DNA of 64,000 bases from Pedobacter antarcticus (GTDB lineage Bacteria > Bacteroidota > Bacteroidia > Sphingobacteriales > Sphingobacteriaceae): the NCBI RefSeq assembly GCF_900112985.1, contig NZ_FONS01000001.1, positions 741,730 through 805,729 on the forward strand. The letters are read 5' to 3'. The position numbers were made by a program, and so were the translations under genes. The first letter of the stretch is position 1. Every line of letters begins with the position of its first letter. This document shows positions 39,410 through 60,861 of the stretch, one piece after another. Under the pieces are notes generated by a model. That model made no database searches. It saw only the letters and a list, made by a program, of their open reading frames with translations, and was not told the DNA's origin.

Positions 39410-39485
39410 CGTTTGTATATGGAATACTCATCTTTGTAATTGGTAAATAACGCAATTGAGAATCAACTTAAATAAATTAATAGCT

Positions 39486-40331: not shown

Positions 40332-40354
40332 CTAAAGGTTAAACAGTATATCCT

Positions 40355-40384
40355 AAGCAGTACACAAAATGTACTGCTTTTTCT
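40355..40384 (+). terminator. Terminator after rteC copy 2
   Basis: AAGCAGTACA (40355-40364), loop CAAAA, TGTACTGCTT (40370-40379), then a T tract. It ends the rteC transcript 24 bases after the stop codon. Confidence 0.88.
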
Positions 40385-40582
40385 TTGCCCATACCTGCCA
40401 ATTGGCAAATGTTGGTAAAACTCCTTTAAAAAACATCTTAAACGCTCCAAAACCCTTATTAAACAGGGGTTTTCCCTAATTGTAAAATTTTTAAAAAAAC
40501 CGCCAAACCAATGGGTAAGGCTTGGCAGACAAACACTGCCACCTTTAGGAATTTTGCATAGTGAACATTTAAAAGCTATGCA
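40385..40582. other. Upstream region of the first element HTH gene
   Basis: No gene is seen. It contains the palindrome TGCCAATTGGCA (40396-40407), an A/T-rich stretch, and the ICE-core motif ACAAACACTGCC at 40529-40540, 43 bases before the ATG at 40583. Confidence 0.5.
40529..40549 (+). repeat. ICE-core upstream motif, copy 1
   Basis: ACAAACACTGCC-ACCTTTAGG, located shortly before the HTH gene at 40583. Similar strings precede the DUF3945 gene (41271-41289) and the DUF1896 gene (60966-60986). Confidence 0.5.
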
Positions 40583-40936
40583 ATGAAAATAATAACTATC
40601 GAAGAAGATGCGTGGCAACAGCTCAATAGCCGTATCAACGCGATTGCCGATTACCTGAAAAGATTGGACAATACAAGTTATGATGAGCTGTGGCTCAACA
40701 ACCACGAGGTATGCCAATACTTGCACATTAGCGAAAAGACCTTATGGCGTATGCGGACCAAAGGCGAGATTGCTTATTCAAAAATCTACGGGCAGTATTT
40801 CTATACCATTGGAGCAATAAAGGATATGCTTAACGCCAATGCCATACAGAGCAGTGACGATTATGTGCAGCAGCTTATGGCAAAAGGCAAAAGTTATATC
40901 GAAAAAGGCAGAAAGCTAAAGACAGATAGAAAATAG
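40583..40936 (+). CDS. Helix-turn-helix protein of the element core (excisionase-like)
   Basis: This 117-residue protein has a C-terminal-half HTH_17/excisionase-type fold (LWLNNHEVCQYLHISEKTLWRMRTKGEIAYSKI in two parts, then GQYFYTIGAIKDML) after an N-terminal coiled segment. Paralogous to the next gene. Such paired small HTH proteins precede DUF3945 and topoisomerase genes in Bacteroidota conjugative transposons and are thought to regulate or assist excision; the function here is inferred. Confidence 0.8.
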   Translation: MKIITIEEDAWQQLNSRINAIADYLKRLDNTSYDELWLNNHEVCQYLHISEKTLWRMRTKGEIAYSKIYGQYFYTIGAIKDMLNANAIQSSDDYVQQLMAKGKSYIEKGRKLKTDRK

Positions 40937-40962
40937 GCATGAACCCTTAAAATTATATTCCT

Positions 40963-41271
40963 ATGAATATTGACAGAATGGAATTTTTGGCGTGGATGGA
41001 ACGCCTAATGGGTCGCCTGGATATGTTGGGCGATAATATAGATGAGTTGCAAAGGAAACGCAACAGTATAGACGGTGAGGAGCTGCTGGACAATCAGGAT
41101 TTGCTTCAGATGCTCAAAATTAGTAACCGCTCGCTGCAACGTTACCGATCCATCGGCAAGCTGCCTTATTATACCATAAGCGGAAAACTGTATTATAAAC
41201 TATCTGATGTACATCAATTTATACGGGAAAGTTTTAACCCGCCGGTAACTAAGTTGAACGCCATTAAGTGA
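40963..41271 (+). CDS. Second helix-turn-helix protein of the element core
   Basis: This 102-residue protein has the pattern LLDNQDLLQMLKISNRSLQRYRSIGKLPYY and YKLSDVHQFI (each a part of an HTH_17/MerR-like domain). It is a diverged partner of the protein encoded 26 bases upstream; both start with an acidic helical part. It is likely co-transcribed with that gene. The last codon of this gene coincides with the start of the second ICE-core motif (41271). Confidence 0.8.
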   Translation: MNIDRMEFLAWMERLMGRLDMLGDNIDELQRKRNSIDGEELLDNQDLLQMLKISNRSLQRYRSIGKLPYYTISGKLYYKLSDVHQFIRESFNPPVTKLNAIK

Positions 41272-41289
41272 CAAACACTGCCTTTGAGC
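41271..41289 (+). repeat. ICE-core upstream motif, copy 2
   Basis: ACAAACACTGCC-TTTGAGC, beginning on the last base of the preceding stop codon and 68 bases before the DUF4099/DUF3945 ATG. It matches 12 bases of the motif at 40529. Confidence 0.5.
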
Positions 41290-41356
41290 GCCATATAGCA
41301 AAATGCGCCCACGGCTTTATATAAATTCGGCTGTGAACTTTTAAAATTTTCAGAAC

Positions 41357-42826
41357 ATGAGCGAGGAAACCACACGTAGGCAGGAAATGCCAGAGCAATT
41401 ATCAGATATATTGTTGGTGCTGGATAAAGAGAAAAAGAAAATTCAGGCCGTAAAGAGCATTGACGAAAACGGCAATATGGAAACCGTTGATCCCACGAAG
41501 AAAAATAAAAATCAGTTTATGCGTGTGGATAAGCATGGAGATTTCTTTTCCAATTTCTTTTCCAATTTTTTCAGCCAGTTAAAGAACCCAACCAATTTCT
41601 CTTTTTTCAAGGTACCTGCACCTGTAGCTATTGATACTGCAGATGCAATGCAAAAGCAGGTAGATAAGCCTACTACTGAAGGGGAGCAACTGATGAAGCA
41701 GCATGAAGTGAAGGCTGAAATGCAACAGGATAAAAAACAAGAAAATAAAAATGATATGGAAACAACACAAACAACAACGGACACAAGCGAATATCGCTTT
41801 AAGCCGGAACAGATTGATTGGGAAACAATGAACAATCTTGGATTGGGCAAAGATCGCCTCGAAAAACTGAATTTGTTAGACCCTTTGTTGAAAGGCTATA
41901 AAACCAATGAGCTTGTGCCCGTAAGTGTAAACCTCGGTGGTGCGATTGTACGCACCGATGCCCGTTTGTCTTTACAGTCTACGGAAGATGGACAAGTGGT
42001 GGCAGCAATACACGGTATCCGAAAAGAACCCAATCTGAATTTTGAGTTTTTTGGACACAAATTCACGGATGAGGATAAAAAAAATCTACTCGAAACCGGC
42101 AATATGGGCAGAGTGGTTGATTTGAAAAACACTAAGACGGGAGAAATGATGCCCTCCATTGTCAGCGTGGATAGACTGACCAATGAACTTATTGCCCTAC
42201 GGACAGATTTCATAAAAATCCCTGATGAGATAAAAGGGGTAAAATTGGACGACGTACAAAAGCAAACCTTAATGGAGGGCAAACCGCTTCAGCTGGATGG
42301 TATGCTTTCCAAAAAAGGAACTGAATTTTCTGCAACGGTACAGTTCAATGCAGACAAACGTTATGTAGAATTTCTGTTTGACCGCAACAACACCAACAGA
42401 CAAACGCAAAACAATGGACAGAATACACAGCAAAGCAATCAGCAAAGTCAACCGCAGGAAGCCCCGAAAACATTCAGGGGAAAAGAACTGACAGACGAAC
42501 AATACAAAGATTTCAAAGCTGGGCAAACCGTTTACATTGATGGGTTGAAGGATAAGAAAGGACAACCGTACCAAGGCTATATTACTTTCAATGCCGAAAC
42601 CGGCAAAACGAACTTCCAGTTTCCAAGCCAGGTTAAGGCACAGGCAAAACCTGTTGAAACCCATAAGACCCAAACAGCGGTCAATTCGGAAGGTAAAACT
42701 AATGAAGCGACCAAGAACATCAAAGAGCCTTTGAAGTCAGGGCAGCAAACCCCAAAAGACAAAAAGCAGCAGGAACAACAGGAAAAACCTCAAACACCCG
42801 CAAAATCTAAAGGCAGAAAAATGTAG
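41357..42826 (+). CDS. DUF4099/DUF3945-type conjugative element protein
   Basis: This 489-residue hydrophilic protein has an N-terminal part (about 1-150) that is Lys/Gln-rich with FFSNFFSNFFSQ repeats. A DUF4099-like domain follows (YRFKPEQIDWETMNNLGLGK...). DUF3945-like repeats (FFGHKFTDEDKKNLLETGNMG; LQLDGMLSKKGTEFSATVQF; FRGKELTDEQYKDFKAGQTV) end in a Gln/Lys-rich tail. Function unknown, but the family is a constant companion of ICE topoisomerases. It ends 6 bases before the topoisomerase start. Confidence 0.85.
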   Translation: MSEETTRRQEMPEQLSDILLVLDKEKKKIQAVKSIDENGNMETVDPTKKNKNQFMRVDKHGDFFSNFFSNFFSQLKNPTNFSFFKVPAPVAIDTADAMQKQVDKPTTEGEQLMKQHEVKAEMQQDKKQENKNDMETTQTTTDTSEYRFKPEQIDWETMNNLGLGKDRLEKLNLLDPLLKGYKTNELVPVSVNLGGAIVRTDARLSLQSTEDGQVVAAIHGIRKEPNLNFEFFGHKFTDEDKKNLLETGNMGRVVDLKNTKTGEMMPSIVSVDRLTNELIALRTDFIKIPDEIKGVKLDDVQKQTLMEGKPLQLDGMLSKKGTEFSATVQFNADKRYVEFLFDRNNTNRQTQNNGQNTQQSNQQSQPQEAPKTFRGKELTDEQYKDFKAGQTVYIDGLKDKKGQPYQGYITFNAETGKTNFQFPSQVKAQAKPVETHKTQTAVNSEGKTNEATKNIKEPLKSGQQTPKDKKQQEQQEKPQTPAKSKGRKM

Positions 42827-42832
42827 TATAAT

Positions 42833-44908
42833 ATGAAAACAATCATCGCAGAAAAACCAAGCGTAGCAAGGGAAATAGCCGGACTAGTTGGGGCATCCGA
42901 TAAACAGGATGGCTACCTGACAGGTAACGGCTATTTTGTTACGTGGGCATTCGGTCATTTAATTGGATTGGGAATGCCCGAAGATTACGGTATATTAGGA
43001 TTTGACAAATCAGCTTTGCCCATAATCCCCAACCCTTTTTTACTGACTGTCCGGAAAATCAAAAAGGACAAAGGTTATATCGCAGATCCTGGAGCTTTAA
43101 AGCAGCTCAAAGTCATAGAACGGCTTTTTAACCAAAGCAACAGCATCATTGTGGCTACCGATGCAGGTCGTGAGGGCGAATTGATATTCCGCTATATCTA
43201 CGAATACCTGAAATGCAGCAAGTCCTTTGAGCGCCTTTGGATTAGTTCGCTTACCGAAAAGGCCATTAAGCATGGGTTTGATAACCTGAAAGACGGTGCA
43301 GCATTTGACGGACTGTACCAAGCGGCACGAGGCAGAAGCCGAGCCGATTGGCTCGTGGGGATCAATGCCACACAGGCCTTAAGTATTGCCGCGGGAAACG
43401 GCATCTATTCGCTTGGAAGGGTACAGACACCTACATTGGCTTTAATATGCAAACGCTATTTAGACAACAAGCATTTCTCGGTAACAAAATATTGGCAGAT
43501 CCAGTTATTGCACAACAAAGAACTGATAGATTTTAAAAGCATTTCCAAAACAAAATGGGAGGATCAAAAACTTGCCGATGATACACTGAAGGCCATTCAG
43601 CGAAATGAAACGGCAACAGTTATATCGGTAGAAACCAAAAGCGTTACAGAGCAGCCGCCTTTATTGTTCGACCTTACCGGATTACAAAAAGAAGCCAATA
43701 AAAAGTTGAACCTGTCAGCCGAAGAAACCCTTAACATTGCGCAAAGTCTGTATGAGAAAAAGTTCATCACGTATCCTCGTACGGGAAGTAAATACATTCC
43801 TGAAGATGTATGGGCAGAAATTCCCAATCTGGTGAGAGCTTTGCAAGATAGAGAAACCTGCAAGCAAGCCGTATCAAAAGTAAAATGGGGGCGTTTCAAT
43901 AAACGGATCGTGAACGATCTGCGTGTTACCGACCACCACGGATTACTGATTACGGATAAAATCCCGTCAGCCCTGAACGCAAAAGAAAATGAGGTATATG
44001 ATATGATTGCATTTCGATTGCTCGAAGCGCTTTCGCAAGCCTGTATCAAAGAGATAACCGATGTGGGTTTGCAGGTGTTGCATTACGATTTTTCAGCAAA
44101 AGGCTGTAAGATTATAGAAGCAGGTTGGCGTTCCGTTAAGGGAAGTTTTACGGACGATGATACGGAACCTGTACAGGACTTACCTGAACTGAAAAAAGGC
44201 AATGAACTCAAAATAAAAGAAGCCTCCGTACTCGAAAAGAAAACCAAACCGCCTGTACTTTATACCGAGGCGGGGCTATTGTCGGCAATGGAAACCGCAG
44301 GAAAAGAAATCGAGAATGAAGACGAACGTAAAGTCCTTCAAAATATCGGTATAGGCACTCCGGCAACAAGGGCGGCAATCATCGAAACCCTGTTTGCACG
44401 CAATTACATCCAAAGGGAAAAGAAGTCCCTTATCCCTACAGAAAAGGGATTGCAAGTGTATGATTTGGTTAAGGATCGCAAAATTGCGGATGTGTCAATG
44501 ACGGCCGAGTGGGAATTGGCTTTACAGAAAATAGAAAATAACGATGCGGATGTCGGGGCATTCCAAAAGGAAATGGAAACTTATGCGTCTACTATTACCA
44601 ATGAATTGCTGCAAACTTCCATCGTCCACAACCTTCCTCAATTGGTTTGCCCGAAATGTAAAAGTCAGCAACTCATCATTCGTGATAAGATTGTCAAATG
44701 TCCTGATGAGGGTTGTAGCTGGGTGCAGTTCCGCAATGTGTGTGGCGTGCAAATTGGCATAGCCGATATTGAAAGCCTTGTCAATAAAAAAAGAACTTCG
44801 CTTATCAAAGGAATGAAAAGCAAGGCAGGAAAGAAATTCGATGCGTATATCGTATTGGATGATCATTGCAAAACTACCTTTGAATTTGAAAAGAAGAAAA
44901 TGAAATAG
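42833..44908 (+). CDS. topB: Type IA DNA topoisomerase (TopB-like) of the element
   Basis: This 691-residue enzyme cuts one DNA strand and passes the other, acting here in element replication or transfer. Seen: the TOPRIM start KTIIAEKPSVAREIA and the acidic DAGREGELIFRY; the catalytic tyrosine Y314 in FITYPRTGSKYIP; GIGTPATRAAIIETL; and a C-terminal zinc ribbon with CPKCKSQQL and CPDEGC. It is the topoisomerase III-like type found in Bacteroidota ICEs. It is 6 bases after the DUF3945 gene. Confidence 0.93.
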   Translation: MKTIIAEKPSVAREIAGLVGASDKQDGYLTGNGYFVTWAFGHLIGLGMPEDYGILGFDKSALPIIPNPFLLTVRKIKKDKGYIADPGALKQLKVIERLFNQSNSIIVATDAGREGELIFRYIYEYLKCSKSFERLWISSLTEKAIKHGFDNLKDGAAFDGLYQAARGRSRADWLVGINATQALSIAAGNGIYSLGRVQTPTLALICKRYLDNKHFSVTKYWQIQLLHNKELIDFKSISKTKWEDQKLADDTLKAIQRNETATVISVETKSVTEQPPLLFDLTGLQKEANKKLNLSAEETLNIAQSLYEKKFITYPRTGSKYIPEDVWAEIPNLVRALQDRETCKQAVSKVKWGRFNKRIVNDLRVTDHHGLLITDKIPSALNAKENEVYDMIAFRLLEALSQACIKEITDVGLQVLHYDFSAKGCKIIEAGWRSVKGSFTDDDTEPVQDLPELKKGNELKIKEASVLEKKTKPPVLYTEAGLLSAMETAGKEIENEDERKVLQNIGIGTPATRAAIIETLFARNYIQREKKSLIPTEKGLQVYDLVKDRKIADVSMTAEWELALQKIENNDADVGAFQKEMETYASTITNELLQTSIVHNLPQLVCPKCKSQQLIIRDKIVKCPDEGCSWVQFRNVCGVQIGIADIESLVNKKRTSLIKGMKSKAGKKFDAYIVLDDHCKTTFEFEKKKMK

Positions 44909-45026: not shown

Positions 45027-45815
45027 ATGGCGCTTAACACTGAACGACGTAAACTATTGGAGCAAATAATGCCTGAAAGTATGATTGTTACGCGAAAATG
45101 GCTGACGGACCAGGCTGCTTTAGATACGCATGCTATAGATAACCTGGTTAAGAGTGAACAACTGAAGCTGTTGTGGAAAGGACTTTATACACGGGGAAAG
45201 GTTCAGCTTTCGTGGCAAAGTATGCTGTACACGCTACAAACCGTGATGAAAACAGATCTTGTTGCAGGAGGATTATCGGCACTGGAATTAAAAGGCTTTT
45301 CCCATTATCTGCCCACTTCGAAAAAAGAAACAATACAGCTTTATGGCAATGATAAATTACCTGTATGGGCCAATGAACTATCGGAAACGATAACATTTGT
45401 TCGCCATACCCGGAATAAACTGTTTTCCGGTATGGAAAGGCAAGTATCCGACAGCTACACTTCTACTGTTTTCTGGAAAGAGGGTTTGGACGAACTTAAA
45501 ATATCCTGTCCGGAAAGAGCCTGCCTCGAAATGCTGGACGAAGTACCGGATAAAATCTCGTTAGAACACGCTGATCAGCTTATACAGGGTATGACCTCCT
45601 TATCGCCCCGCACTTTGCAAAAATTACTGGAAGCCTGTACCAATGTAAAGGTTAAGCGGCTTTTCCTTTGGTTCGGTTCACGACACAACTATACCTGGTT
45701 TTCAAAATTGAATACCGACAGTATAGACCTCGGTTCCGGAAACCGGGTAATCGTCAAAGGCGGCGATCTCGATAAAACATATAAAATAACCGTTCCTAAA
45801 AATTTCCAATCCTAA
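45027..45815 (+). CDS. AbiEi-family antitoxin/autorepressor of a type IV TA system
   Basis: This 262-residue protein has an N-terminal winged-helix portion (LLEQIMPESMIVTRKWLTDQ; LWKGLYTRGK) and a longer C-terminal domain, as in AbiEi antitoxins (AbiEi_3-like). In type IV systems the antitoxin opposes the toxin without direct binding. It precedes the nucleotidyltransferase-toxin gene by 1 base, so the pair is tightly coupled, and the flanking palindromes fit its DNA-binding role. Confidence 0.85.
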   Translation: MALNTERRKLLEQIMPESMIVTRKWLTDQAALDTHAIDNLVKSEQLKLLWKGLYTRGKVQLSWQSMLYTLQTVMKTDLVAGGLSALELKGFSHYLPTSKKETIQLYGNDKLPVWANELSETITFVRHTRNKLFSGMERQVSDSYTSTVFWKEGLDELKISCPERACLEMLDEVPDKISLEHADQLIQGMTSLSPRTLQKLLEACTNVKVKRLFLWFGSRHNYTWFSKLNTDSIDLGSGNRVIVKGGDLDKTYKITVPKNFQS

Positions 45816-45816
45816 G

Positions 45817-46737
45817 ATGAAAAAGGACAGCATATATTACAAACAGGTGCAGTTGTTGGTGCGTATCCTACCGCTACTGGATAGTGAAAAGTGTTTTGCA
45901 CTAAAAGGCGGCACGGCTATCAATCTTTTTTACAGGGAGCTGCCACGGCTTTCTGTAGATATAGATTTATTGTACCTGCCCTCCGAAGGTCGTGAGGAAG
46001 CATTGGTCAACATTCGGGCTGCATTAACCCGATTAAGCGAGTTGATTAAGAAAACCATTCCTGGCATTCACATACAAAACGCACACGAGCAGGGAAATGC
46101 GCTTCGTTTAATCCTGCAACTGGAAGATGTAAGGATTAAGGTGGAATTGTCGCCGGTGATCCGTGGAACGGTATTCTCCGAAGTACGAATGGAGGTAAGT
46201 GAGCCTGTGGAGAGGGAGTTCGGATATGCCGAAATACAGGTAGCTTCGTTGCCCGATCTGTATGCCGGAAAAATTGCAGCCGCCCTGGACCGGCAACATC
46301 CCCGTGATTTATTTGACGTGAAATTCCTGCTCGAAAACGAGGGCTTTACTGAAGACCTGCGCAAAACGTTCCTTGTGTTCCTAATCAGCCATCAGCGGCC
46401 AATGGCAGAACTTTTGGCTCCTCACCGTAAAAATATAAGAGAAGTATATGAAGCAGAATTTGCACAAATGGCCGAAGTGGATATTCCCGTTGAAGCACTG
46501 GAGGCCACGAGGGAACAACTCATTGAAATTATCAATACGGATATGACCACTGATGAGCGGAAATTTTTGTTGTCGTTCAAAGAGCGAAACCCACAATGGG
46601 AACTGCTGGGGTTGCCTAATATGGAAGAGGTTGCCCAACTACCATCCGTTCAATGGAAATTGTTCAATCTCTCAAAAATGGACGAAAAAAAACATAACCA
46701 GGCAGTAGAGAAACTGAAAGAAGTACTGAAGTTATAG
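45817..46737 (+). CDS. AbiEii-family nucleotidyltransferase toxin
   Basis: This 306-residue protein has DNA-polymerase-beta-like nucleotidyltransferase motif I KGGTAINLF (30-38), with the metal-binding pair in LSVDIDLLY (D48, D50). A later LPDLYAGKIAAALDR and RDLFDVKFLL block is as in AbiEii/AbiGii toxins. These toxins add nucleotides to tRNA or other RNA acceptor ends and block growth during phage infection. The start overlaps closely with the AbiEi stop (1-base gap). Confidence 0.9.
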   Translation: MKKDSIYYKQVQLLVRILPLLDSEKCFALKGGTAINLFYRELPRLSVDIDLLYLPSEGREEALVNIRAALTRLSELIKKTIPGIHIQNAHEQGNALRLILQLEDVRIKVELSPVIRGTVFSEVRMEVSEPVEREFGYAEIQVASLPDLYAGKIAAALDRQHPRDLFDVKFLLENEGFTEDLRKTFLVFLISHQRPMAELLAPHRKNIREVYEAEFAQMAEVDIPVEALEATREQLIEIINTDMTTDERKFLLSFKERNPQWELLGLPNMEEVAQLPSVQWKLFNLSKMDEKKHNQAVEKLKEVLKL

Positions 46738-46931: not shown

Positions 46932-47876
46932 ATGAAGATACCATATACATTGTATTCTAAAAATGAGCATGTAAAATCCAAGAATGAGCCTCATAACCTC
47001 TCCGAACAGAGCAGGTACGTACTGACCTTTGCCCAGAAAACACATCATTTCCAAATACCTGAAATGGATCTTTTCAGCCAACAACTGAATTACAAGCCTT
47101 TTTTTGTCGATCTGGTAGAGATTAATGTTAAGAAGCCAACCCATATTCCTTTTGATATCCATGACAGGCAACTGTTCATGTTCTTTATGCTCAAAGGCAG
47201 CCTGCTCTATACCACATCTTCAAAAATTCCTATAATTAAGATACAAGCCAACACGTTCCTGATGTCGTACTATGACGAGGGATCATATTTAGCATATGCT
47301 GAAAGAGGACAACACATTGCCCTTGTACTGAGCATACATCCCGATTGGATTGAAAGTATAGATCAGGAGTATTACAATGTGCAACAAATTCTGCAAAGGT
47401 TCCTGAATGGTAAAAAATCTTATGAAACAATGGGGCAATGCCGTATGGATAGGAAAATACATCGTTGGCTGTATAAGATTTATAGTTACTCGCAAAATAA
47501 CAAAGGGGCACTCGATGGCAATTTGCGCAAATACGTAAGTTTGCTGCTGGAGTATTACGATAGCTTGTTGGAAGACCAGGATAAGGATGCGGCTTATCGG
47601 ATCAAGGGGTTTATAGAAGAGCATTATTGCGATGTCTCCTTAAACGTAAGGCAGTTGGCAGCGCATTTCTTTGTTACCGAGAGAACTTTGTTGAATATAT
47701 TTAAGCGTACCTATCATGTAAGCGTTCAGCAATTTATCGCTGATCTACGTATTGGCCATGCTTTACTTTTATTGGATCAGGGGATCGGGGTCAAGGATGT
47801 GTATATGGAAGTGGGTTATGCTGATGAACGATCCTTTCGCTCTGCCTTGGAGCGTTATCAGAAACGCAAAAAATAG
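46932..47876 (+). CDS. AraC-family transcriptional regulator
   Basis: This 314-residue protein has an N-terminal part (about 1-200) with no clear sensor fold. A C-terminal AraC double helix-turn-helix has VSLNVRQLAAHFFVTERTL for the first helix pair and GVKDVYMEVGYADERSFRSAL for the second. It is followed 143 bases on by the MauE/DUF6520 genes and lies beside the SusC/SusD/TlpA operon, so it may regulate that set (inference). Confidence 0.88.
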   Translation: MKIPYTLYSKNEHVKSKNEPHNLSEQSRYVLTFAQKTHHFQIPEMDLFSQQLNYKPFFVDLVEINVKKPTHIPFDIHDRQLFMFFMLKGSLLYTTSSKIPIIKIQANTFLMSYYDEGSYLAYAERGQHIALVLSIHPDWIESIDQEYYNVQQILQRFLNGKKSYETMGQCRMDRKIHRWLYKIYSYSQNNKGALDGNLRKYVSLLLEYYDSLLEDQDKDAAYRIKGFIEEHYCDVSLNVRQLAAHFFVTERTLLNIFKRTYHVSVQQFIADLRIGHALLLLDQGIGVKDVYMEVGYADERSFRSALERYQKRKK

Positions 47877-48019: not shown

Positions 48020-48547
48020 ATGGAAACAACAGCTACATATCCAAACCAACTCAAAAGAAAACGGATAACACTCAATATCGTTATCATTCTATTGCTGCTT
48101 CTTTGGATACCTGTAAGCATTGACAAAATAACAGACTTTGCAGCATTTAAAAGCGGTATCCTCCGTCAACCCTTTTCGGATAGTTTAAGGTACATCCTTA
48201 TTTACACGCTCCCGGCGTTGGAATTAATAACAGTACTGACATTGGTAATGGAAAAGTTTCGCAAGGGTGGTTTAATCCTATCTACCGTATTAATGACTGC
48301 TTTTACAGCTTATATCGCTGTGGCTCTTATGGGCGCATGGGAAAAATTGCCCTGCGGGTGCGGGTCGGTGATAAGCGGCATGACTTGGTTGCAACATTTT
48401 TTCTTCAATCTCTTGTTCCTTTTTTTAAGCGGTTGGGGGCTTTACTTATGGCATAAATTACGAGGTAGCAACGCCAGAGGCGTAGTTGCCGAGGGCGCGT
48501 CTGCCAAAAGACATATAAAAAAGTATTCTTTAACATCAAAATTTTAA
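48020..48547 (+). CDS. MauE/DoxX-like redox-associated membrane protein
   Basis: This 175-residue protein has about four membrane helices (TLNIVIILLLLLWIPVSI; LTLVMEKFRKGGLILSTVLM) and a conserved PCGCG cluster (about 112-116, LPCGCGSVISGMTW). That is the signature of MauE-family proteins, which pass electrons to periplasmic thioredoxin-like partners. It is followed by the DUF6520-like gene after 4 bases. A TlpA-type thioredoxin is encoded in the opposite operon. Confidence 0.8.
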   Translation: METTATYPNQLKRKRITLNIVIILLLLLWIPVSIDKITDFAAFKSGILRQPFSDSLRYILIYTLPALELITVLTLVMEKFRKGGLILSTVLMTAFTAYIAVALMGAWEKLPCGCGSVISGMTWLQHFFFNLLFLFLSGWGLYLWHKLRGSNARGVVAEGASAKRHIKKYSLTSKF

Positions 48548-48551
48548 AGCG

Positions 48552-48842
48552 ATGAAAAAATTAAAAATGAACCTATTTATGGTAGCTGCTTTAGCGATTG
48601 CGGCTATAACCATGTCATTTAAAATGGCTGATACCACAACACAATGGCGTTACATCGGCACAGCCAGCCAGCCATTCAACGATGCTTCCCTTTGGGAACA
48701 GGGTGCTGGTTCGGGATGCGGGCCAGCAGGTGCTAAACCCTGCCAGCTTAACGTTGATGCTGCCGATGAGCAGGAACTTATCGATTATTTTTCTACCGTG
48801 TCAAGCACGGACGTTTACAATATGTCAACGAAGAAAAATTGA
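48552..48842 (+). CDS. Small exported DUF6520-like protein
   Basis: This 96-residue protein has an N-terminal hydrophobic export signal (LFMVAALAIAAITMSFKMA). Two cysteines in SGCGPAGAKPCQLNV could form a disulfide. The acidic, Asp/Glu/Ser-rich tail (DAADEQELIDYF) and short length suggest a secreted peptide-like protein. Proteins of this kind (recalled as DUF6520) pair with MauE in Bacteroidota. It is closely followed by a strong terminator. Confidence 0.6.
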   Translation: MKKLKMNLFMVAALAIAAITMSFKMADTTTQWRYIGTASQPFNDASLWEQGAGSGCGPAGAKPCQLNVDAADEQELIDYFSTVSSTDVYNMSTKKN

Positions 48843-48860
48843 CCTCATCGTAAAAATTGA

Positions 48861-48888
48861 AAGGCTATCGTTTGATAGCCTTTTTTTT
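48861..48888. terminator. Terminator between the DUF6520-like gene and susD
   Basis: AAGGCTATC (48861-48869), loop GTTT, GATAGCCTT (48874-48882), followed by a T tract. The minus-strand susD stop at 48887 abuts it, so it can serve both converging transcripts. Confidence 0.88.
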
Positions 48889-50260
48889 ATCTTGGATTTT
48901 GTTGTATCCCGCCAATTTCTATAACAGTTTCAGGTATAGCAATGGCATAGCGCAGGTCATTAGGAGGTAAAGTAAAAGATTGCCCACCAACCGTTCGTGT
49001 AAGGGTTATGTTGTAACCATCCCTGTTCAATCGTTTAATATCCGACCAGCGTAAACTACGCATGGTTAATTCTTTTCTTCGTTCTTCTAAAACAGTTCGT
49101 AGCGCAGCATCATTATTCGTGAATGTATAAGGTATAAAACTGCCAATTTTCCATCGCTTAATGGCAAGTTGATTTAATGCCTCGGCTGCTTGGGAAAGTT
49201 GTCCTAAACGGACGTTACATTCAGCAGCTATTAGTAAAAGTTCAGCAGGTGTAAGACTATTCATCAAACCAAAATATCCAATATGCGTTCCTTTAAAAAA
49301 ATACGAGCCGTCAGTATTCTTGCCGAAATAAATGACTTTGCGTAAATCCTCGTTACTATATAAATCATAAAGAGCGGGAACTATCTTACATACTGTTTGG
49401 TTCAACTGACTGGCGTAATATATGGATGTATAGGATATTAATTCCTTGCTGGCGTAGTTAATTGCGGGTATTGGGAAATCAGCATTTGGGTCTAAAGTGT
49501 TAAAATCAATTATCTGTGCATTTGTATTGCCAAGAGCGGCTCTTGCGTTCTCTAAGGCTTTTTCATACTCACCCATAAACAAATAAGTCCTTGCCAATAA
49601 TCCGTATGCCGCAGCTTTTCCGGGAAGGGTTACGCCTATTGGATTGATTGGTAAAAGCGGTATAGCATCGGATAGGTCTTTGATAATTAAATCATAGGTC
49701 TGCTGTACCGATGACCTGACAGATTTAATAGTTACGTCAGGTACTACCCGCAAGACCATTCCTAAGTCTGTATTTGCAGTTTGTTTATTGTAGGCAAGCG
49801 ACCATATCTGTACCCCATCTAGATAACGAGCCGCCCTAAAAAACAAAGCCTGCCCTTTGATATTATTTGCTTGATTGCCTGTCAAATGATTTTCATCAAG
49901 CCCTTGCAACACAGAATTGGAAACATATATAGACTTATAGGTGTTGTACCATTCATCACCTACCGAAGATTGCGGTCGGGTTACATAATCGGGTTGCCAT
50001 GTATATAATCTTTTTTCGCTTTCATATTGCATGGAATTAAAATCAGCGTCCGAAAGATAATAATCATCAGAACTGACTTCACCCGCAGCTATAAAATCAT
50101 TATTCATGTGATTGTAATTGTTAAGCAACGCCTGAAATTCATCAAGGGTAGTAGGAACCGTGAGCCGCTTATCAGATTTTTCTTCAAGGAATTTTTTACA
50201 GCCTACAAATAGCATGGATAGTAATACAGAAAGTATTGTTATTTGAATGTTTTTTTTCAT
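48887..50260 (-). CDS. SusD/RagB-type outer-membrane substrate-binding lipoprotein
   Basis: This 457-residue protein has a lipoprotein start (ILSVLLSMLFVGC, lipidated Cys near 21), then KFLEEKSDKRLTVPTTLDEFQALL, in two parts, as in SusD/RagB families. It has helical TPR-like arms (LLARTYLFMGEYEKALENAR) and the typical C-terminal end ERRKELTMRSLRWSDIKRLN. SusD caps the partner TonB channel. It lies 13 bases after susC, with which it pairs. The ligand (glycan or peptide) is unknown. Confidence 0.92.
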   Translation of the reverse strand: MKKNIQITILSVLLSMLFVGCKKFLEEKSDKRLTVPTTLDEFQALLNNYNHMNNDFIAAGEVSSDDYYLSDADFNSMQYESEKRLYTWQPDYVTRPQSSVGDEWYNTYKSIYVSNSVLQGLDENHLTGNQANNIKGQALFFRAARYLDGVQIWSLAYNKQTANTDLGMVLRVVPDVTIKSVRSSVQQTYDLIIKDLSDAIPLLPINPIGVTLPGKAAAYGLLARTYLFMGEYEKALENARAALGNTNAQIIDFNTLDPNADFPIPAINYASKELISYTSIYYASQLNQTVCKIVPALYDLYSNEDLRKVIYFGKNTDGSYFFKGTHIGYFGLMNSLTPAELLLIAAECNVRLGQLSQAAEALNQLAIKRWKIGSFIPYTFTNNDAALRTVLEERRKELTMRSLRWSDIKRLNRDGYNITLTRTVGGQSFTLPPNDLRYAIAIPETVIEIGGIQQNPR

Positions 50261-50273
50261 TGTGATAAAGACT

Positions 50274-53200
50274 TTAAAATTTTGACCGAATACCTATTGC
50301 GTAATTTGCTGGAGGGACAATATTGTAAGTACCTCTACTAAAATCAGGGTCAAGACCTGCTTTATTGGCTCTCCATAGCAAGCCAAGATTATTGGCATTG
50401 ACATATACCTGTAACCCTTTTATGCCTACGTTAGCGGGCATTTTAAAATCATAGGCAAGATTTATGTATTGAAGCCTGATGTGGTCGCCTTTTTCTACCA
50501 AGACACTGGAACCGTTATAAAAAGCATCACGGTTGGAATTGGCGGTGTATAGATTTACCGGAACGTTGGTATGTGCCTCGTCTCCCGGTTTTTGCCAACG
50601 AAGTGCATAATCCGAATGCCCACGCCAATTATTGAACAGGTCTGTATAGTTGACAGAATTGCGCCTGAACCAATAACCGAACTTAAACGAAACACCTACT
50701 TGTAAGCTGATGTTTTTATAAGATACCGCATTGATTAGTGAACCAAATTTTGTGGGGACTGCTGAACCAAAATATTCCAAATCCTCCACTTTAGTACCTG
50801 TTCCAACAATGCTGCTATAATTTTTGCTTACCTCACCACTAAGGTAGCCCTGTGCTTCACCTGTATTCGGGTCAAGTCCAGCCCATTTATAACCGTACAT
50901 TGCATATACAGGATGCCCCTTTATGCCCGATATTGGTGTAAAGGCAGGGTTGACATATTCCTGTGCCAATGTTCTATCTATTTCATATAGGATTATCTTA
51001 TCCTTATACAGACTAAAATTCAGTGTTGTTCTCCATTTGAACGCACGGCCAATATTTAAACTCCGAAGTTCGATGTCCAAACCATTGCCTTCCATGGTCG
51101 CCACATTTCGCAGTGTCGATGGTTGCATACCATTAGTATAGTCAATTGGGGCAGCCCCAAAAAGATTTTCACCTTTTTTATGATAGTATTCGACAGAACC
51201 CGATATACGTTCATTTTTCATGCGAAAATCGACCGCTGCATTTAACATTTTGGAAGTTTCCCATTTTAACAATGGGTTGTAGAAATTACTAATGGATGCC
51301 ATCGGGTAACCATTAATGAGTGAGTTCTGAAAAAAGTAACTAATGGTATTAACTGCAACCATAGCGGGGTCAATATTGCCGCTAAAGCCGTAGGTTGCCC
51401 GTAAATTGAGGTAAGGCAGAAAATCAAATTTATAAAACTTTTCATTCGACACTTTCCAAGCAAGTCCAGCCGACCAAAAAGGGTTCCATTGGTCATTGGT
51501 CTTCAGTCCGAAAAGGTTACTTGCATCCCTGCGGACACTTGCCGAAAACACATACCTTTTATCAAACGTATAGGCAGCATTAGCGAATTGTGATACGAAA
51601 TTTGTTGTATTACCACTTAAATATTGACCACCTTGTATAAATGCGCTCCCTCTTGGAAGCGTAGGGTAAGTATTTATATAATTCACATACCCGGTGGTAA
51701 GGTTGTTTTCATTATAACCATAAAAACGTTCCTGTTGTCCGGTTGAATTTTTGGAACGCATTTCGGCTCCTGCTATGGCTATAATATTGTGCTTGCCAAA
51801 AGTATTGTCAAAGTTCAGTTGTCCCCGCAGGTTATTTGCATTTAAGACACTATTGGATTTATCCAATATGCCGCCTTTAGGCACAATGAAAACTGCATTG
51901 CCATTAACGATTTGAGCAAAGCGATTGATGTAATCCCGTGCCATATAGCTGGTTTCATCTGCAAGATTGTTGTTCAGCCCCCACTGCTTTTCGTATTGAT
52001 AATTTACTGTTGCAGTCAGCCCTTTGATAATTTGATAATCGAGGACGGCAGTTGCCAATATATCAGATGCGTTATTATTTAATGTTTGGTGCTGCCAGTC
52101 GGTAAGTGGATAATAATTCCAGTCAAGCAGTTTTCCATCACCTGCGGTTTGTATATAATTGAGGTTATAATCCTTTGTTACGGGCAAGGCATTGCCGTTA
52201 GCATCTGCCATTAGCATATAGGGTACAAAGGAGTTGGTTTTCATGGAAACATTGTTGTAACCATACCTACCTGATTTATTTTGGCTTTGGGTATAATACA
52301 ATCCTGTGGTAAGGGAGACTTGCCGAATTGGCCGATACGTATTTTGGAAACGGAAATTAATACGTTGATAAGTAGCTCCTAAATTGCTTTTATTGTTATC
52401 ATATCCTACCGATGATGTCCACGAAAATTTATCAGCACCACCCTGGGCACTCAAAAAATACTGTTGATTGACAGACGGCTTATACATATACTGATTAAAC
52501 TGCTCTCTCGCATCCACATTTCTTAATGCGTCAATCTGTTGTTGTGCCTGCTCTTGTGTCATCGCACCTGTGCGCACTTTGTTCAATAGGTAGACCACAG
52601 GGCTGATGACCGGACGGTTTACCGAATTGATTTGGCTGTTGTAAAAGTTCCGTTTAAATAATTCTTGTTCCATGTCAATGTAATCATTGGATGACATCTG
52701 ACGGATGTACCCCAAATCAGGCTTTGTTCCAATGGTAAGGTTGGAATTGAACGATAAGGTAATCGGCTGATTGAAACGACCGTTTTTTGTGGTAATCACA
52801 ATTACGCCATTTGCCGCTCTTGCACCCCAAATGCTGGCAGCAGATGCATCTTTTAGGATAGTTATGTTTTCTACAATGTTGGGATTGATATTGGTAATAT
52901 CACCATCATACGGGAAATTATCTATAATAATCAATGGGTCTTTGGGGCCACGAATGGTACTTAATCCCCGTACCATCATTTGGGGAGTGCCACCAAGACC
53001 ATTAGCAATAACAATGCTGTTGCCAATAGCTGGCAACCGGGAAAGAATATCTGTACCCACCTGTTGATTAAACAGTTCATTGCTCACTGTGGAAAATGAG
53101 CCTGTTGCTCGCTCTTTGGGAATTTTCTGATAACCTGTTGACACCACTTCTACTTCATCCAATAAACGGGAAGAGATATGCAGGAAGATGTTTAAAGTAT

Positions 53201-53471
53201 CCCGCTGTGGCAGGTTTACGGTTACTGTAATTGCCTCATAGCCTACGTGATTAATAAGCAATAGCACGGCATTTACATTGGTAGCAGTTTGGATGGTAAA
53301 ATAGCCTTTACCGTTGGTGCTTACCGTTCTGTCCGCTCCTTTCAGGGATACACTGGCTCCCTCAACAGGCAAAGTATCATTACGGGAAATAACCCTACCT
53401 GTGATAGTTTGTTGTGCGAACAAGCAAACGGACGCAGTAAGCAGTGTGATAAGAAGTAAAAAAGATTTCAT
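50274..53471 (-). CDS. SusC/RagA-type TonB-linked outer-membrane transporter
   Basis: This 1065-residue protein has a signal peptide (LLLITLLTASVCLFAQ) and an N-terminal CarboxypepD_reg-like domain (about 20-110, ITGRVISRNDTLPVEGASV). The plug has the ILKDASAASIWGARAANGVI signature. The long beta-barrel ends IVPPANYAIGIRSKF. It lacks an N-terminal STN domain, so it is unlikely to signal to an anti-sigma factor. It is preceded by the TlpA gene (37-base gap) and followed by susD. Confidence 0.93.
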   Translation of the reverse strand: MKSFLLLITLLTASVCLFAQQTITGRVISRNDTLPVEGASVSLKGADRTVSTNGKGYFTIQTATNVNAVLLLINHVGYEAITVTVNLPQRDTLNIFLHISSRLLDEVEVVSTGYQKIPKERATGSFSTVSNELFNQQVGTDILSRLPAIGNSIVIANGLGGTPQMMVRGLSTIRGPKDPLIIIDNFPYDGDITNINPNIVENITILKDASAASIWGARAANGVIVITTKNGRFNQPITLSFNSNLTIGTKPDLGYIRQMSSNDYIDMEQELFKRNFYNSQINSVNRPVISPVVYLLNKVRTGAMTQEQAQQQIDALRNVDAREQFNQYMYKPSVNQQYFLSAQGGADKFSWTSSVGYDNNKSNLGATYQRINFRFQNTYRPIRQVSLTTGLYYTQSQNKSGRYGYNNVSMKTNSFVPYMLMADANGNALPVTKDYNLNYIQTAGDGKLLDWNYYPLTDWQHQTLNNNASDILATAVLDYQIIKGLTATVNYQYEKQWGLNNNLADETSYMARDYINRFAQIVNGNAVFIVPKGGILDKSNSVLNANNLRGQLNFDNTFGKHNIIAIAGAEMRSKNSTGQQERFYGYNENNLTTGYVNYINTYPTLPRGSAFIQGGQYLSGNTTNFVSQFANAAYTFDKRYVFSASVRRDASNLFGLKTNDQWNPFWSAGLAWKVSNEKFYKFDFLPYLNLRATYGFSGNIDPAMVAVNTISYFFQNSLINGYPMASISNFYNPLLKWETSKMLNAAVDFRMKNERISGSVEYYHKKGENLFGAAPIDYTNGMQPSTLRNVATMEGNGLDIELRSLNIGRAFKWRTTLNFSLYKDKIILYEIDRTLAQEYVNPAFTPISGIKGHPVYAMYGYKWAGLDPNTGEAQGYLSGEVSKNYSSIVGTGTKVEDLEYFGSAVPTKFGSLINAVSYKNISLQVGVSFKFGYWFRRNSVNYTDLFNNWRGHSDYALRWQKPGDEAHTNVPVNLYTANSNRDAFYNGSSVLVEKGDHIRLQYINLAYDFKMPANVGIKGLQVYVNANNLGLLWRANKAGLDPDFSRGTYNIVPPANYAIGIRSKF

Positions 53472-53508
53472 TCATGAATTGAGTTAGATTGTGATAAAAT
53501 GGTAGCAA

Positions 53509-54891
53509 CTATTTGTCCTTTATGACGAACATATTAAGGCTTCTTTTGGCGGGTATGAGGTCGAGGTCATACCTATTCAGTTCTTTTTTAAGGCTTGCCA
53601 AATCCCTAACGCCCGATATTTCAATATCTACATTATCGGTGTAGCCTGTTTCATCAATAATAAGCTGGTCAATAGGTGTATCGTCAATAAGACGGTTAAC
53701 CATATAAGCTATTGGCAGATTAGATAGAATAGAGGGTGGATTTGGAAATGTATTTTTTAATTTTCCTCCTTTACTTTTGATTAGGTCTTTTGAGGAAGTC
53801 CTTACCAGTATAAGGCACTCTACCATACGCTTTTCAATGCTGCCCATGTAGTCCGAGTACTCGTTAAGGTAATTCAGCACATAGTGGGATAAACTGTCTG
53901 CTTTTTCTCCGGGTACAATCAACTCATAGTTGAATAGGTTGTATTCCTCAAATGTTCCATCAGGTTTTAAGATTGGATTTAGTAATGCTGGCTGCTTAAC
54001 GTCAACAATAACCCGCTTCCGATTGAACTTTTCCCCGTTCCTGCTAAATAGGTCTTCAAGTACTGGGCGATAAATATCCATCATGGACTGGTTAGTCATC
54101 TGCCTACTAAATATTTTGCCCTCTTTGGTCTTTTTAAAATTTCCGGCGGATGGTAAGCCAGGATAATAACCTTTCGCAAAAATGGAGTAACCTTTTAATT
54201 GTAAATTGCTGCCAAAGTGTTCAGAAAGGAACAACGGTCTATCACGGTCAATATCCACCTTAGAGGTCATTTGCGTTTCGTTGTTGTCCAGAACTGCTCG
54301 TATGTTTGTTGGAGTTATTTCTTCTGCCTGTGTTGTGTTCAGCACTTTACCATTTGGAGCAATCCATACGATATGAGGTAGGATATTATTTGGGAAATAA
54401 TTTGAAAGTACGCTGTCGTTAATAACAGAGTTAACATAAGTGTGTCCTTTACCTGCTCCTGCTGTAAAGAATTTATTTATCTTTTCTTTGGGTTCGCCTG
54501 TTACTGCCAGCACTTTTATCTTGTCGGCAAATTCATTTTGCAAAGCATGTAGTTTTGGAAAATTCTTTATACAGGGCGAACAATACGTTGCCCAAAAATC
54601 CAGTATGATCAGCTTACCTTTATAATCGGCAAGAGTGATGGTCCGTTTACCCTGGGGATGGTTCACCACCTGCAAAGGGGTGTTCCAAAGTGCATCGGGA
54701 ATTTGGTCGCCGATGTTTAATGCGGTGATGTTTTGGTTGTTTGCAGTCCTGACTTCTCGGGACTGCGGACGGGCTACCCCGACACTAAACAACATGAAAC
54801 AAAAAACTAAAAAATACCTGCCCTCTATTATCAGTCTCGGACAATGGCAGGCTATAAAAATCGAAATCTTATTACGTAGAGGTTTGCTCAT
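53509..54891 (-). CDS. TlpA-type thioredoxin protein fused to a long C-terminal domain
   Basis: This 460-residue envelope protein has a signal or anchor at about 20-44 and a TlpA thioredoxin fold with WATYCSPCIKNFP (C104, C107). A long extra region covers about 200-460 and ends with a repeated structure (LIIDETGYTDNVDIEISG; DLASLKKELNRY) that recalls the C-terminus of TIGR03435-type proteins; I am not sure of this match. It heads the TlpA-SusC-SusD operon. The redox partner may be the MauE-like protein across the cluster. Confidence 0.75.
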   Translation of the reverse strand: MSKPLRNKISIFIACHCPRLIIEGRYFLVFCFMLFSVGVARPQSREVRTANNQNITALNIGDQIPDALWNTPLQVVNHPQGKRTITLADYKGKLIILDFWATYCSPCIKNFPKLHALQNEFADKIKVLAVTGEPKEKINKFFTAGAGKGHTYVNSVINDSVLSNYFPNNILPHIVWIAPNGKVLNTTQAEEITPTNIRAVLDNNETQMTSKVDIDRDRPLFLSEHFGSNLQLKGYSIFAKGYYPGLPSAGNFKKTKEGKIFSRQMTNQSMMDIYRPVLEDLFSRNGEKFNRKRVIVDVKQPALLNPILKPDGTFEEYNLFNYELIVPGEKADSLSHYVLNYLNEYSDYMGSIEKRMVECLILVRTSSKDLIKSKGGKLKNTFPNPPSILSNLPIAYMVNRLIDDTPIDQLIIDETGYTDNVDIEISGVRDLASLKKELNRYDLDLIPAKRSLNMFVIKDK

Positions 54892-58722: not shown

Positions 58723-60861
58723 TTATTCTTCAGTCGTATGTATTGTCTCTTCTTCCTCTTCGAGCATAAAATCAAGAAACAATAGCTCAGCCTTTGCAGC
58801 TTCATTTTCAAATTGCAGATCCCAACGTTCTTCCATAAATTCCAGCAGCTTGTTGCCTCTATGGAGGATAGCATCAGCATTCCAAACAGCGTAGCCTGAA
58901 ACTTCAATTTCAGAATGTGAACCATCAGCATAACCTTGTCTTATTTTCTCTTTCTTCTCGTTATACTTAGCACTTTTCTTGTCATCAAAGCAGTCATTTT
59001 GCAAACTGGAATTAATACTCTGCGAGAGTGGCAGGAGATTTCCTAATGTTCCTTGAAAAAAGGGTAGCTGTGATTTTTTATAGCCCTTAAAATTGGATTT
59101 CCAACCCGTGTGTGTTGGCGTTTGAGGATAAATGTGCTCAATGGAAACTTTGTCTTTTTCGCTCCTTACAAAAAGCTTCCAGTCAATTTTTTGACTGCCT
59201 CTTCGTCTTACCTTTTCCATTTCATATTCATACAAGAAGTAGCGAAGTCCATTCCAATAATAAAAGCCACCGCCACTTTTAAATTTCTTGTCGATGAATT
59301 TTTGGAAGTAGGTATAATCGAAATAAGTTTCGGTGGAATTTTCTGGTGTATAAAAACAGTAATTCATTCGATCATTCAAACGCTGGATAATATTGTCAAT
59401 TGTCAATTCGCCATTTCGCAACTGTCTCGCCGCCCGATAAAACTCACTGTTTCTATACGTAGAGAAAGCCCGGCTAAGCCGGAATGTGATAAATATAAAG
59501 CGCTCGATTGCTTTAAATAATTGAACTCGCATATCCGAATTAACATCCTTGTTCAAGAAAGCTACCGTTACAAGCGGGCGGAAATAGATAATACCAATTC
59601 TGTTCAATCGGTCTATCCATAGGCTTTCCTGTGCAGTCAAGTCTGGATTGTTGACCGGATTATGGGTGTTGTACCAGTGAACGGCAGCAGCTTTTAAACT
59701 GTTCACATAGTCTTCGATTTCTTTGGGAGAGAGTTGCGAACGTAATACTGTGGTTTCTTCTTCTCCATTTGTCTCAACTTCTTCCTGATCGGTATCTTCA
59801 TCTTCCCTGACTTCTTCAAAATCTTGTAAAGAACTAACCTTTACTTCTGTTTTTGCATAAATATTTTGCGGTGTAAATTTCTGCTCCAACAAAAACCTGA
59901 TATAATCATCGCCTTTTTCTCTTGTGTATTGAAAATACATTATCCAATGAGCAACTAAAAAATCATCATCGTTGAGTGGATTTTGTTTATTTCGTCCCAG
60001 TTGGTAATAGACTTCCTTCCAGGCATCGTTGATTTTCTCACGCAAAGAAATCCGCTCATCATTTTTGAGTTCCTTCTCATCGTATAAGGTCGTTAAATAG
60101 ATTAGGCGATTTTTAAGAAGCTCTAAATTTGATAGTTTTTTGCCGCGGTTATTCATGGTCTCAAATGCAACAAATACATCGAAGTCATCACTTATTTCAT
60201 AGACATTGAACATTAGGTTCTGCGTGACTTTCTTGAATAAGACCTCGATTTCATTTAATCCGTATTTGTCAAGGTAATTTTGCAGATTTTCTTTGAAAAA
60301 GCGTTTTGCATTTTCAAGGTTGAGTGTATAGAAGGTTTCCTGGATTGTTCCGCTATTGGGTTCCATAAAAATCCTATGCCTTAGAAATTTGAAGCTTGGG
60401 TTATCAACCTCATAACCAAACTTGTAGGTTGTAATGATCAACTGCGGCGGTCTTTCTATGACCAAATACTCTTCCTTAATCGCCTTCAGGCTAAAAGAGC
60501 CCAGATAAATATCTTCATCTTTCTTATCCTTATTTTCCGCAACAAGCCTCAATTGTTCCGAAATAGCCTGAATAAATATGACAAACGTGGTTAGTCTTTG
60601 TTGTCCATCAACAATATGAAAAGGCTTGAAGGCTCTGTCTTCAATGAGCCACCGTTCATCATTCCAGTTAGACCAGGTATTCTTGTCCACTTTTTTTAAT
60701 GAGAGTAGTCCCGTGTAGTGAAACCTATCGGCTGGGAGATTGACCAAATCTTCCCAAAAATCTTTGAGTTGACGTGTAGTCCAGGCGTACCCACGCTGGT
60801 AATCGGGAATTTTAAATAATCTGTCTTTAAAAATGCTCTTCAGAGGTTCTAATTCATTCAT
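58723..60861 (-). CDS. GmrSD-type DUF262/DUF1524 endonuclease-like protein
   Basis: This 712-residue protein has an N-terminal DUF262 domain: IPDYQRGYAW (18-27) and the ParB-like nucleotide-binding motif IVDGQQRLTT (83-92). The C-terminal DUF1524 HNH nuclease has IEHIYPQ (574-580) and TLGNLLPLSQSINSSLQN about 30 residues later. The fused form is the single-chain GmrSD layout, known as a type IV restriction enzyme for modified phage DNA. An acidic stretch (EDEDTDQEEVETNGEEETT) lies near 360-380. It is transcribed divergently from the DUF1896 gene. Confidence 0.9.
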   Translation of the reverse strand: MNELEPLKSIFKDRLFKIPDYQRGYAWTTRQLKDFWEDLVNLPADRFHYTGLLSLKKVDKNTWSNWNDERWLIEDRAFKPFHIVDGQQRLTTFVIFIQAISEQLRLVAENKDKKDEDIYLGSFSLKAIKEEYLVIERPPQLIITTYKFGYEVDNPSFKFLRHRIFMEPNSGTIQETFYTLNLENAKRFFKENLQNYLDKYGLNEIEVLFKKVTQNLMFNVYEISDDFDVFVAFETMNNRGKKLSNLELLKNRLIYLTTLYDEKELKNDERISLREKINDAWKEVYYQLGRNKQNPLNDDDFLVAHWIMYFQYTREKGDDYIRFLLEQKFTPQNIYAKTEVKVSSLQDFEEVREDEDTDQEEVETNGEEETTVLRSQLSPKEIEDYVNSLKAAAVHWYNTHNPVNNPDLTAQESLWIDRLNRIGIIYFRPLVTVAFLNKDVNSDMRVQLFKAIERFIFITFRLSRAFSTYRNSEFYRAARQLRNGELTIDNIIQRLNDRMNYCFYTPENSTETYFDYTYFQKFIDKKFKSGGGFYYWNGLRYFLYEYEMEKVRRRGSQKIDWKLFVRSEKDKVSIEHIYPQTPTHTGWKSNFKGYKKSQLPFFQGTLGNLLPLSQSINSSLQNDCFDDKKSAKYNEKKEKIRQGYADGSHSEIEVSGYAVWNADAILHRGNKLLEFMEERWDLQFENEAAKAELLFLDFMLEEEEETIHTTEE

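Follow-up and report, generated by a model that had tools for sequence, protein, structure and literature searches.

A gene cassette in which a MauE-family membrane protein and a small two-cysteine protein, encoded on one strand, converge on a TlpA-SusC-SusD unit encoded on the other was characterised in a stretch of Pedobacter antarcticus DNA (NZ_FONS01000001.1, positions 741,730 to 805,729; the whole 64,000-nucleotide stretch is referred to below as the window), and the same cassette is carried by many Bacteroidota. It is tentatively proposed, with a likelihood somewhat short of even, that the small protein is exported, carries a disulfide introduced by MauE and would serve as the ligand of its cognate SusC/SusD pair (SusCD), and that the product of the remaining gene of the import unit would reduce or cleave what enters. 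An earlier note on this DNA had placed MauE and the small protein on the plus strand facing TlpA, SusC and SusD on the minus strand, and open reading frames (ORFs) are found at exactly the coordinates it gave:

48020..48547, plus strand: MauE-family membrane protein with a CxC motif (Cys112, Cys114); PF07291, 88.5 bits (cut-off 27), E 5.9e-25
48552..48842, plus strand: small protein with a Sec-like N terminus, Cys56 and Cys64, DUF6520-like; PF20130, E 1.9e-4, below cut-off
48887..50260, minus strand: SusD/RagB lid lipoprotein of a cassette-specific clade; PF14322, 99.3 bits (cut-off 27), E 4.3e-28; PF07980, 34.4 (23.1); tree
50274..53471, minus strand: SusC/RagA TonB-dependent transporter; TIGR04056, 484 bits (cut-off 368), E 1.2e-144; TIGR04057, E 1.2e-15
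53509..54891, minus strand: TlpA/ResA-type thioredoxin (Cys104, Cys107) with a long C-terminal extension; PF00578, 40.5 bits (cut-off 26); PF08534, 34.6 (26.6)

Comparison of two sets of loci indicates that this arrangement is highly regular. The first set comprises 82 loci, namely the best 80 of 381 MauE relatives found in named genomes together with the window cassette and a second one from its genome, with 10-kb flanks annotated and flanks counted only where at least 6 kb was available. Downstream of MauE, SusC is present at 71/74, SusD at 68/74 and TlpA at 67/74 loci, against 7/73, 4/73 and 1/73 respectively in the upstream flank, which served as the control, and all of the downstream copies taken lie on the strand opposite to MauE. 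The second set, of 60 further and mostly lower-ranked MauE places from a search of 151 genomes of the same family as this one (77 with a match), gives SusC at 56/59, SusD at 54/59 and TlpA at 56/59 loci downstream, all convergent, and 1/59, 0/59 and 1/59 upstream; three of its 48 complete loci duplicate the first set and are retained in these layout counts. The genera concerned, going by the genus names of the loci, span several groups of Bacteroidota, presumably in the orders Sphingobacteriales, Chitinophagales, Cytophagales and Flavobacteriales, and one genome has 17 matches to the MauE profile, which suggests a large expansion of the cassette. No description of the cassette was found in the open-licence full-text literature.

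The genome of the window provides a background for these counts. A PF14322 profile search finds 34 SusD genes, and a convergent, exported two-Cys ORF occurs at 0/31 of the SusD loci outside cassettes. Strong TlpA matches are present at three SusD-SusC loci, all with a small Cys-pair gene: the window, the second cassette on contig C17 and a third (L249) on the window's contig, about 156 kb away, in which the small protein, TlpA, SusD and SusC are present and MauE is absent. Among 30 loci fetched for relatives of the TlpA of this third cassette, the convergent flank is visible in nine (TlpA being 3'-most); the small protein is found in all nine, and five have no MauE in the stretch examined. In a quick maximum-likelihood tree of 41 cassette SusDs (39 random ones, the window and C17), 37 form one clade with an SH-aLRT of 100, separate from 28 other SusDs of the genome, and the remaining four cluster with the SusD of the third cassette. 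Given the two sets of loci and this background, the convergent layout is beyond chance: the link between the modules, first read off the gene arrangement, is genuine and widespread among Bacteroidota, and the prospect that DUF6520 and SusC/D co-occur no more often than expected, against which the earlier note had set its idea, was checked and is not what is found. That MauE with the small protein and SusCD with TlpA merely travel together, with no functional tie, would suit the position of the window copy among conjugative-element genes but is highly improbable, given that the convergence is constant across genera despite gene fusion and enzyme replacement and that the cassettes have a dedicated SusD clade.

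The family assignments and the distribution of cysteines point to the small protein as the object of the redox chemistry. The window MauE scores above the PF07291 cut-off and carries PCGCG at residues 111-115, and P-C-x-C-G, W, H and N are invariant in an alignment of 19 relatives; it had been called an electron carrier, a role that is unsupported, and is better described as a MauE-family protein, small and membrane-bound. The minus-strand genes are transcribed in the order TlpA, SusC, SusD, and the TIGR04056/TIGR04057 SusC adjoins the PF14322/PF07980 SusD, as a SusC/SusD pair. TlpA, which has a thioredoxin-type domain with CxxC, belongs with the TlpA/ResA oxidoreductases; its residues 59-202 give a fold match to thioredoxins (Z 16), and it scores 51.6 with the stricter NCBIfam ResA model, under the cut-off of 170. 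Its C-terminal extension (residues 206-460) was observed to be DUF3738-like in 7/21 aligned relatives (best E 2.4e-8). The PCxCG of MauE is kept in 82/82 loci and the CxxC of TlpA in 68/69; in the aligned sequences the MauE CxC is present in 97/97 and the two TlpA cysteines in 97/97 and 95/97. SusC has a median of zero Cys past residue 25, with none in 67/97, the window copy included, and SusD has one invariant Cys near the N terminus in 97/97, interpreted as that of the lipobox, with a further Cys in 66. Since the small protein is the sole non-enzyme product with a conserved Cys pair, it is, by elimination and not by proof, the likely object of the redox enzymes. The disulfide chemistry that had been suggested for this locus is supported by the two enzyme motifs, the Cys pair and the nearly Cys-free SusC, and MauE probably forms the disulfide of the small protein. 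A DsbB search of the genome gave no match and the VKOR family one match, so another oxidase could serve the loci that lack MauE.

An exported-looking ORF with a Cys pair follows MauE in 80/82 loci of the first set, and 73/80 of these small proteins have exactly two Cys past residue 20, spaced by 6-8 residues in 68 of the 73. Under a looser rule, the second set has at least one candidate in 56/60 loci, and 57/61 candidates have exactly two Cys; those at locus L191 look spurious and were dropped later. The small protein probably leaves the cytoplasm by a Sec-type signal, where "secreted" refers to an N terminus that looks Sec-like by its hydropathy rather than by a signal-peptide predictor. The mature part (residues 27-96, 7.5 kDa) is predicted to form a compact domain some 65 residues long: the AlphaFold2 model has a mean pLDDT of 80.8 and is confident from about residue 31, with block means from there mostly of 92-97 but of 77 for residues 51-60. 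Comparison of the model with the PDB gave no fold match at E 0.001, an absence that is not in itself proof of a novel fold. The DUF6520 label of the earlier note stands as to position and the two Cys and fails on the family threshold, the window protein scoring 22.2 bits (E 1.9e-4) against a PF20130 gathering cut-off of 25.4, and "DUF6520-like" is for this reason the accurate name; a relative at the same locus position, the one small protein tested from loci with a fused MauE, passes at 32.8. Searches with PF20130 give false matches, as at loci L031, L032 and L034-L040, which have no cassette gene, and in 3/14 control genomes of a loose single-genome search. A profile of close relatives matched in only 3 of 296 genomes of the phylum, which indicates that the sequence is too variable for such a search. 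Indeed, the mature small protein is the most variable product of the cassette, with a median pairwise identity over 52 loci of 17%, compared with 22% for TlpA, 38% for MauE, 39% for SusD and 41% for SusC.

Variants of the cassette bear on what the import unit may handle. In a sample of the phylum (198 genomes, 25 with a match), MauE lies within an open frame of about 500 residues in 15 of the 39 matches listed. Seven of these 15 loci were fetched and all keep the convergent layout: in 7/7, with sequences displayed for five, MauE runs into a domain of about 350 residues of no known family, followed by a four-Cys small protein that is convergent with a gene of 780-910 residues, SusD and SusC. 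The fusion was noted in L288-L299, whereas by eye L013, L019, L024 and L028 carry the 350-residue domain as a gene of its own, behind that of the small protein; its identification as a beta-propeller was rejected, no family or PDB sequence match supporting it. In place of TlpA, all three of the large proteins tested are S9 peptidases (E 1.9e-26, 3e-30 and 4.5e-17). With TlpA or S9 at the third position, the enzyme of the import unit is a disulfide reductase or an oligopeptidase, and both fit an imported peptide.

The sequence of events that we infer, from oxidation by MauE through outer-membrane crossing and docking to purpose, would run as follows. In the first module, the small protein would leave the cytoplasm by its Sec-type signal, fold into a compact domain and receive one disulfide from MauE or, in loci without MauE, from another oxidase of the cell. 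The second module, on the opposite strand and separately transcribed, would supply a dedicated SusC/SusD and one enzyme able to dismantle disulfide-bonded peptides. The oxidised small protein, whether free, loaded or as a fragment, would then dock on the SusD/SusC surface of the producer or its kin, TlpA or the S9 enzyme would work on the peptide material taken in, and the purpose may be nutrient capture or kin sensing.

Binding of the small protein to SusC would be expected to show as joint sequence change. Across the first set, the mature part of the small protein covaries with SusC once MauE, TlpA and SusD are removed (r 0.31, 0/300 permutations); it does not track MauE (0.06, 34/300, controlling for SusC, SusD and TlpA) or TlpA (-0.01, 178/300). 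Pooling the sets, with the duplicate loci excluded, gives 0.18 (0/200 permutations) and 0.227 (0/300) for small protein and SusC, and the signal part of the small protein tracks MauE (0.207, 0/200). The covariation is suggestive only, since the permutations ignore relatedness. Several observations count against the small protein as a cognate SusCD ligand. The covariation with SusC was not replicated by identity in the second set (r 0.049, 90/500) and is only weak there by alignment score (r 0.083, 7/300), and in some pairs SusC is 54% identical and the small protein only 16-17%. Both small Cys-pair ORFs of the C17 cassette (L007:9209-9439 and 9661-9906) are without a signal peptide and begin straight at mature-type sequence. 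No outer-membrane export route was seen in the cassette. Finally, a limit of about 5 kDa in total for the SusCD cavity is suggested in a passage of PMC7782687, and given the 7.5 kDa of the mature protein, its import intact is unlikely; docking, delivery of a bound molecule and uptake of fragments remain as options.

The last two points favour the closest rival, in which the small protein stays in the envelope, in the periplasm or at the surface, as an oxidised subunit whose task would be to gate, protect or specify SusCD, with MauE and TlpA setting its redox state: no outer-membrane export gene was seen, the protein is too big for the SusCD cavity, and it has a one-to-one partnership with one SusD clade. 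Nevertheless, it would be unusual for a stoichiometric subunit to be encoded convergently and transcribed on its own, and the sequence of the small protein varies far more than that of SusC (the medians of 17% and 41% given above); this explanation is considered rather unlikely.

Two further features lie at the edges of the plus-strand genes:

46932..47876, plus strand: AraC-type regulator, upstream of MauE; PF12833, 50.3 bits (cut-off 33.6), E 3.1e-13
48859..48884, plus strand: 11-pair hairpin with a T tail in the convergent gap; a 10-pair stem is also readable on the other strand

Terminator-like matches such as this hairpin are no commoner across the region than in shuffles. The AraC regulator does precede the set, as the earlier note had it, but lies outside the range it gave, and such regulators recur at other loci but are in places replaced by Crp-like, LytTR/histidine-kinase or sigma/FecR genes. 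Anywhere in the stretches of the 82 loci, Crp-like regulators were counted 31 times, LytTR 23 and AraC 4; by eye, the second set of 60 has 14 AraC-type and 24 Crp-like. A family of 380-430 residues ("x430"; L051:3660-4808, L101:7566-8732) was also seen near many cassettes, in some directly upstream and in the same direction; a by-eye guess that it is RteC-like was rejected, profile comparison with the window RteC giving a probability of 0.2 and Pfam nothing convincing.

A lantibiotic dehydratase, LanB (PF04738, PF14028), is present in 22/82 loci, always upstream and never downstream, and within 700 bp of MauE in 13. This raises the possibility that the small protein is the precursor of a ribosomally synthesised and post-translationally modified peptide (RiPP), modified by the LanB adjoining MauE, and homologues of mauE and mauD have been proposed as RiPP modifiers in Streptomyces in the relevant part of PMC7794033. 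However, this is very unlikely: most loci, the window included, are without LanB, the small protein has a Sec-like signal, and its Ser/Thr content is the same with or without LanB (P 0.49 between the Cys, 0.29 overall), for which LanB was rejected as its modifier. The genome's only PF04738 match is on another contig, C15, and the window cassette does not class as a class I lanthipeptide cluster. The LanB loci (most of L041-L054, L059, L077, L094 and others) were observed mostly to have a histidine kinase and LytTR, and no LanC was noticed in them.

To one side of the window cassette are RteC, DUF4099/DUF3945, topoisomerase and AbiE genes, and to its other side are HTH, GmrSD and DUF1896 genes. 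RteC is at 39456-40331 (E 4.3e-76), the element markers span 39456-44908 of the window, and MobB, TraG, TraJ, TraK, TraM and TraN follow about 15-31 kb past the window end on the same contig (G000:C24:804000-843800). RteC and the nearby Bacteroidetes Tra proteins identify a CTnDOT-type conjugative element and, given that RteC, Mob and Tra markers lie on both sides, the cassette is probably its cargo. An AbiEi/AbiEii type IV toxin-antitoxin pair (45027-46737) and a GmrSD-type restriction enzyme (58723-60861) were seen beside the cassette. A role in antagonism could be imagined in this setting, the small protein being bacteriocin-like, SusCD its entry point into sensitive relatives and TlpA or the peptidase conferring immunity by inactivation. 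The hypervariability of a small exported protein, the presence of several differing copies in a genome (as many as 17 MauE matches in one case), the mobile element and the LanB genes in 22/82 loci are all consistent with such a role, but the putative toxin nearly always has its putative receptor encoded beside it, and neither a dedicated exporter nor a typical immunity gene was seen, which makes it distinctly unlikely.

The usual assignment of SusC/SusD pairs, made from the enzymes that adjoin them, is to food uptake; here a large subfamily that is deeply conserved is tied to redox enzymes and to a tiny exported protein encoded in the same genome. Should the small protein indeed be a SusCD ligand, part of the Bacteroidota SusCD repertoire would serve self-made proteins, not food, and proteins of the DUF6520 type would gain a function. 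A bolder version, regarded as unlikely, is that of a Bacteroidota-wide system, a protein analogue of siderophores or pheromones: every strain would release a hypervariable disulfide microprotein of its own, to be recognised or taken back by a dedicated SusCD, and the system would be partly spread by conjugative elements and present in many non-identical copies per genome.

Among known systems, the maturation of the methylamine dehydrogenase small subunit by MauE and MauD is like the cassette in having MauE and a thioredoxin-like protein beside a small exported disulfide protein, and a role of MauE in forming disulfides is a speculation made in PMC7794033 with reference to van der Palen (1997). 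MauA has many cysteines, whereas the cassette protein has two, and SusC/SusD replace the dehydrogenase genes; with two Cys only in the small protein, the locus was not classed as a methylamine dehydrogenase cluster, no search for mauA/mauB being made. HasA/HasR combines a small exported binding protein with a dedicated TonB-dependent outer-membrane receptor, and the cassette likewise has a small exported protein with its own TonB-dependent receptor; it differs in its disulfide chemistry, its SusD lid and in that no type I exporter was seen in it, and the likeness is one of description. Candidate RiPP clusters of Streptomyces found by decRiPPter pair a MauE homologue with a small predicted precursor, and one family of them has MauD as well (PMC7794033, in the passages on these clusters); they come from another phylum, and the same passages mention no SusC/SusD. 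The RagAB and other SusCD peptide importers share the SusC and SusD families, and both peptides and glycans are among the cargoes of known SusCD systems, as a passage of PMC7782687 describes; to these importers the cassette adds a near-constant convergent gene for a Cys-microprotein, MauE, and TlpA or an S9 peptidase.

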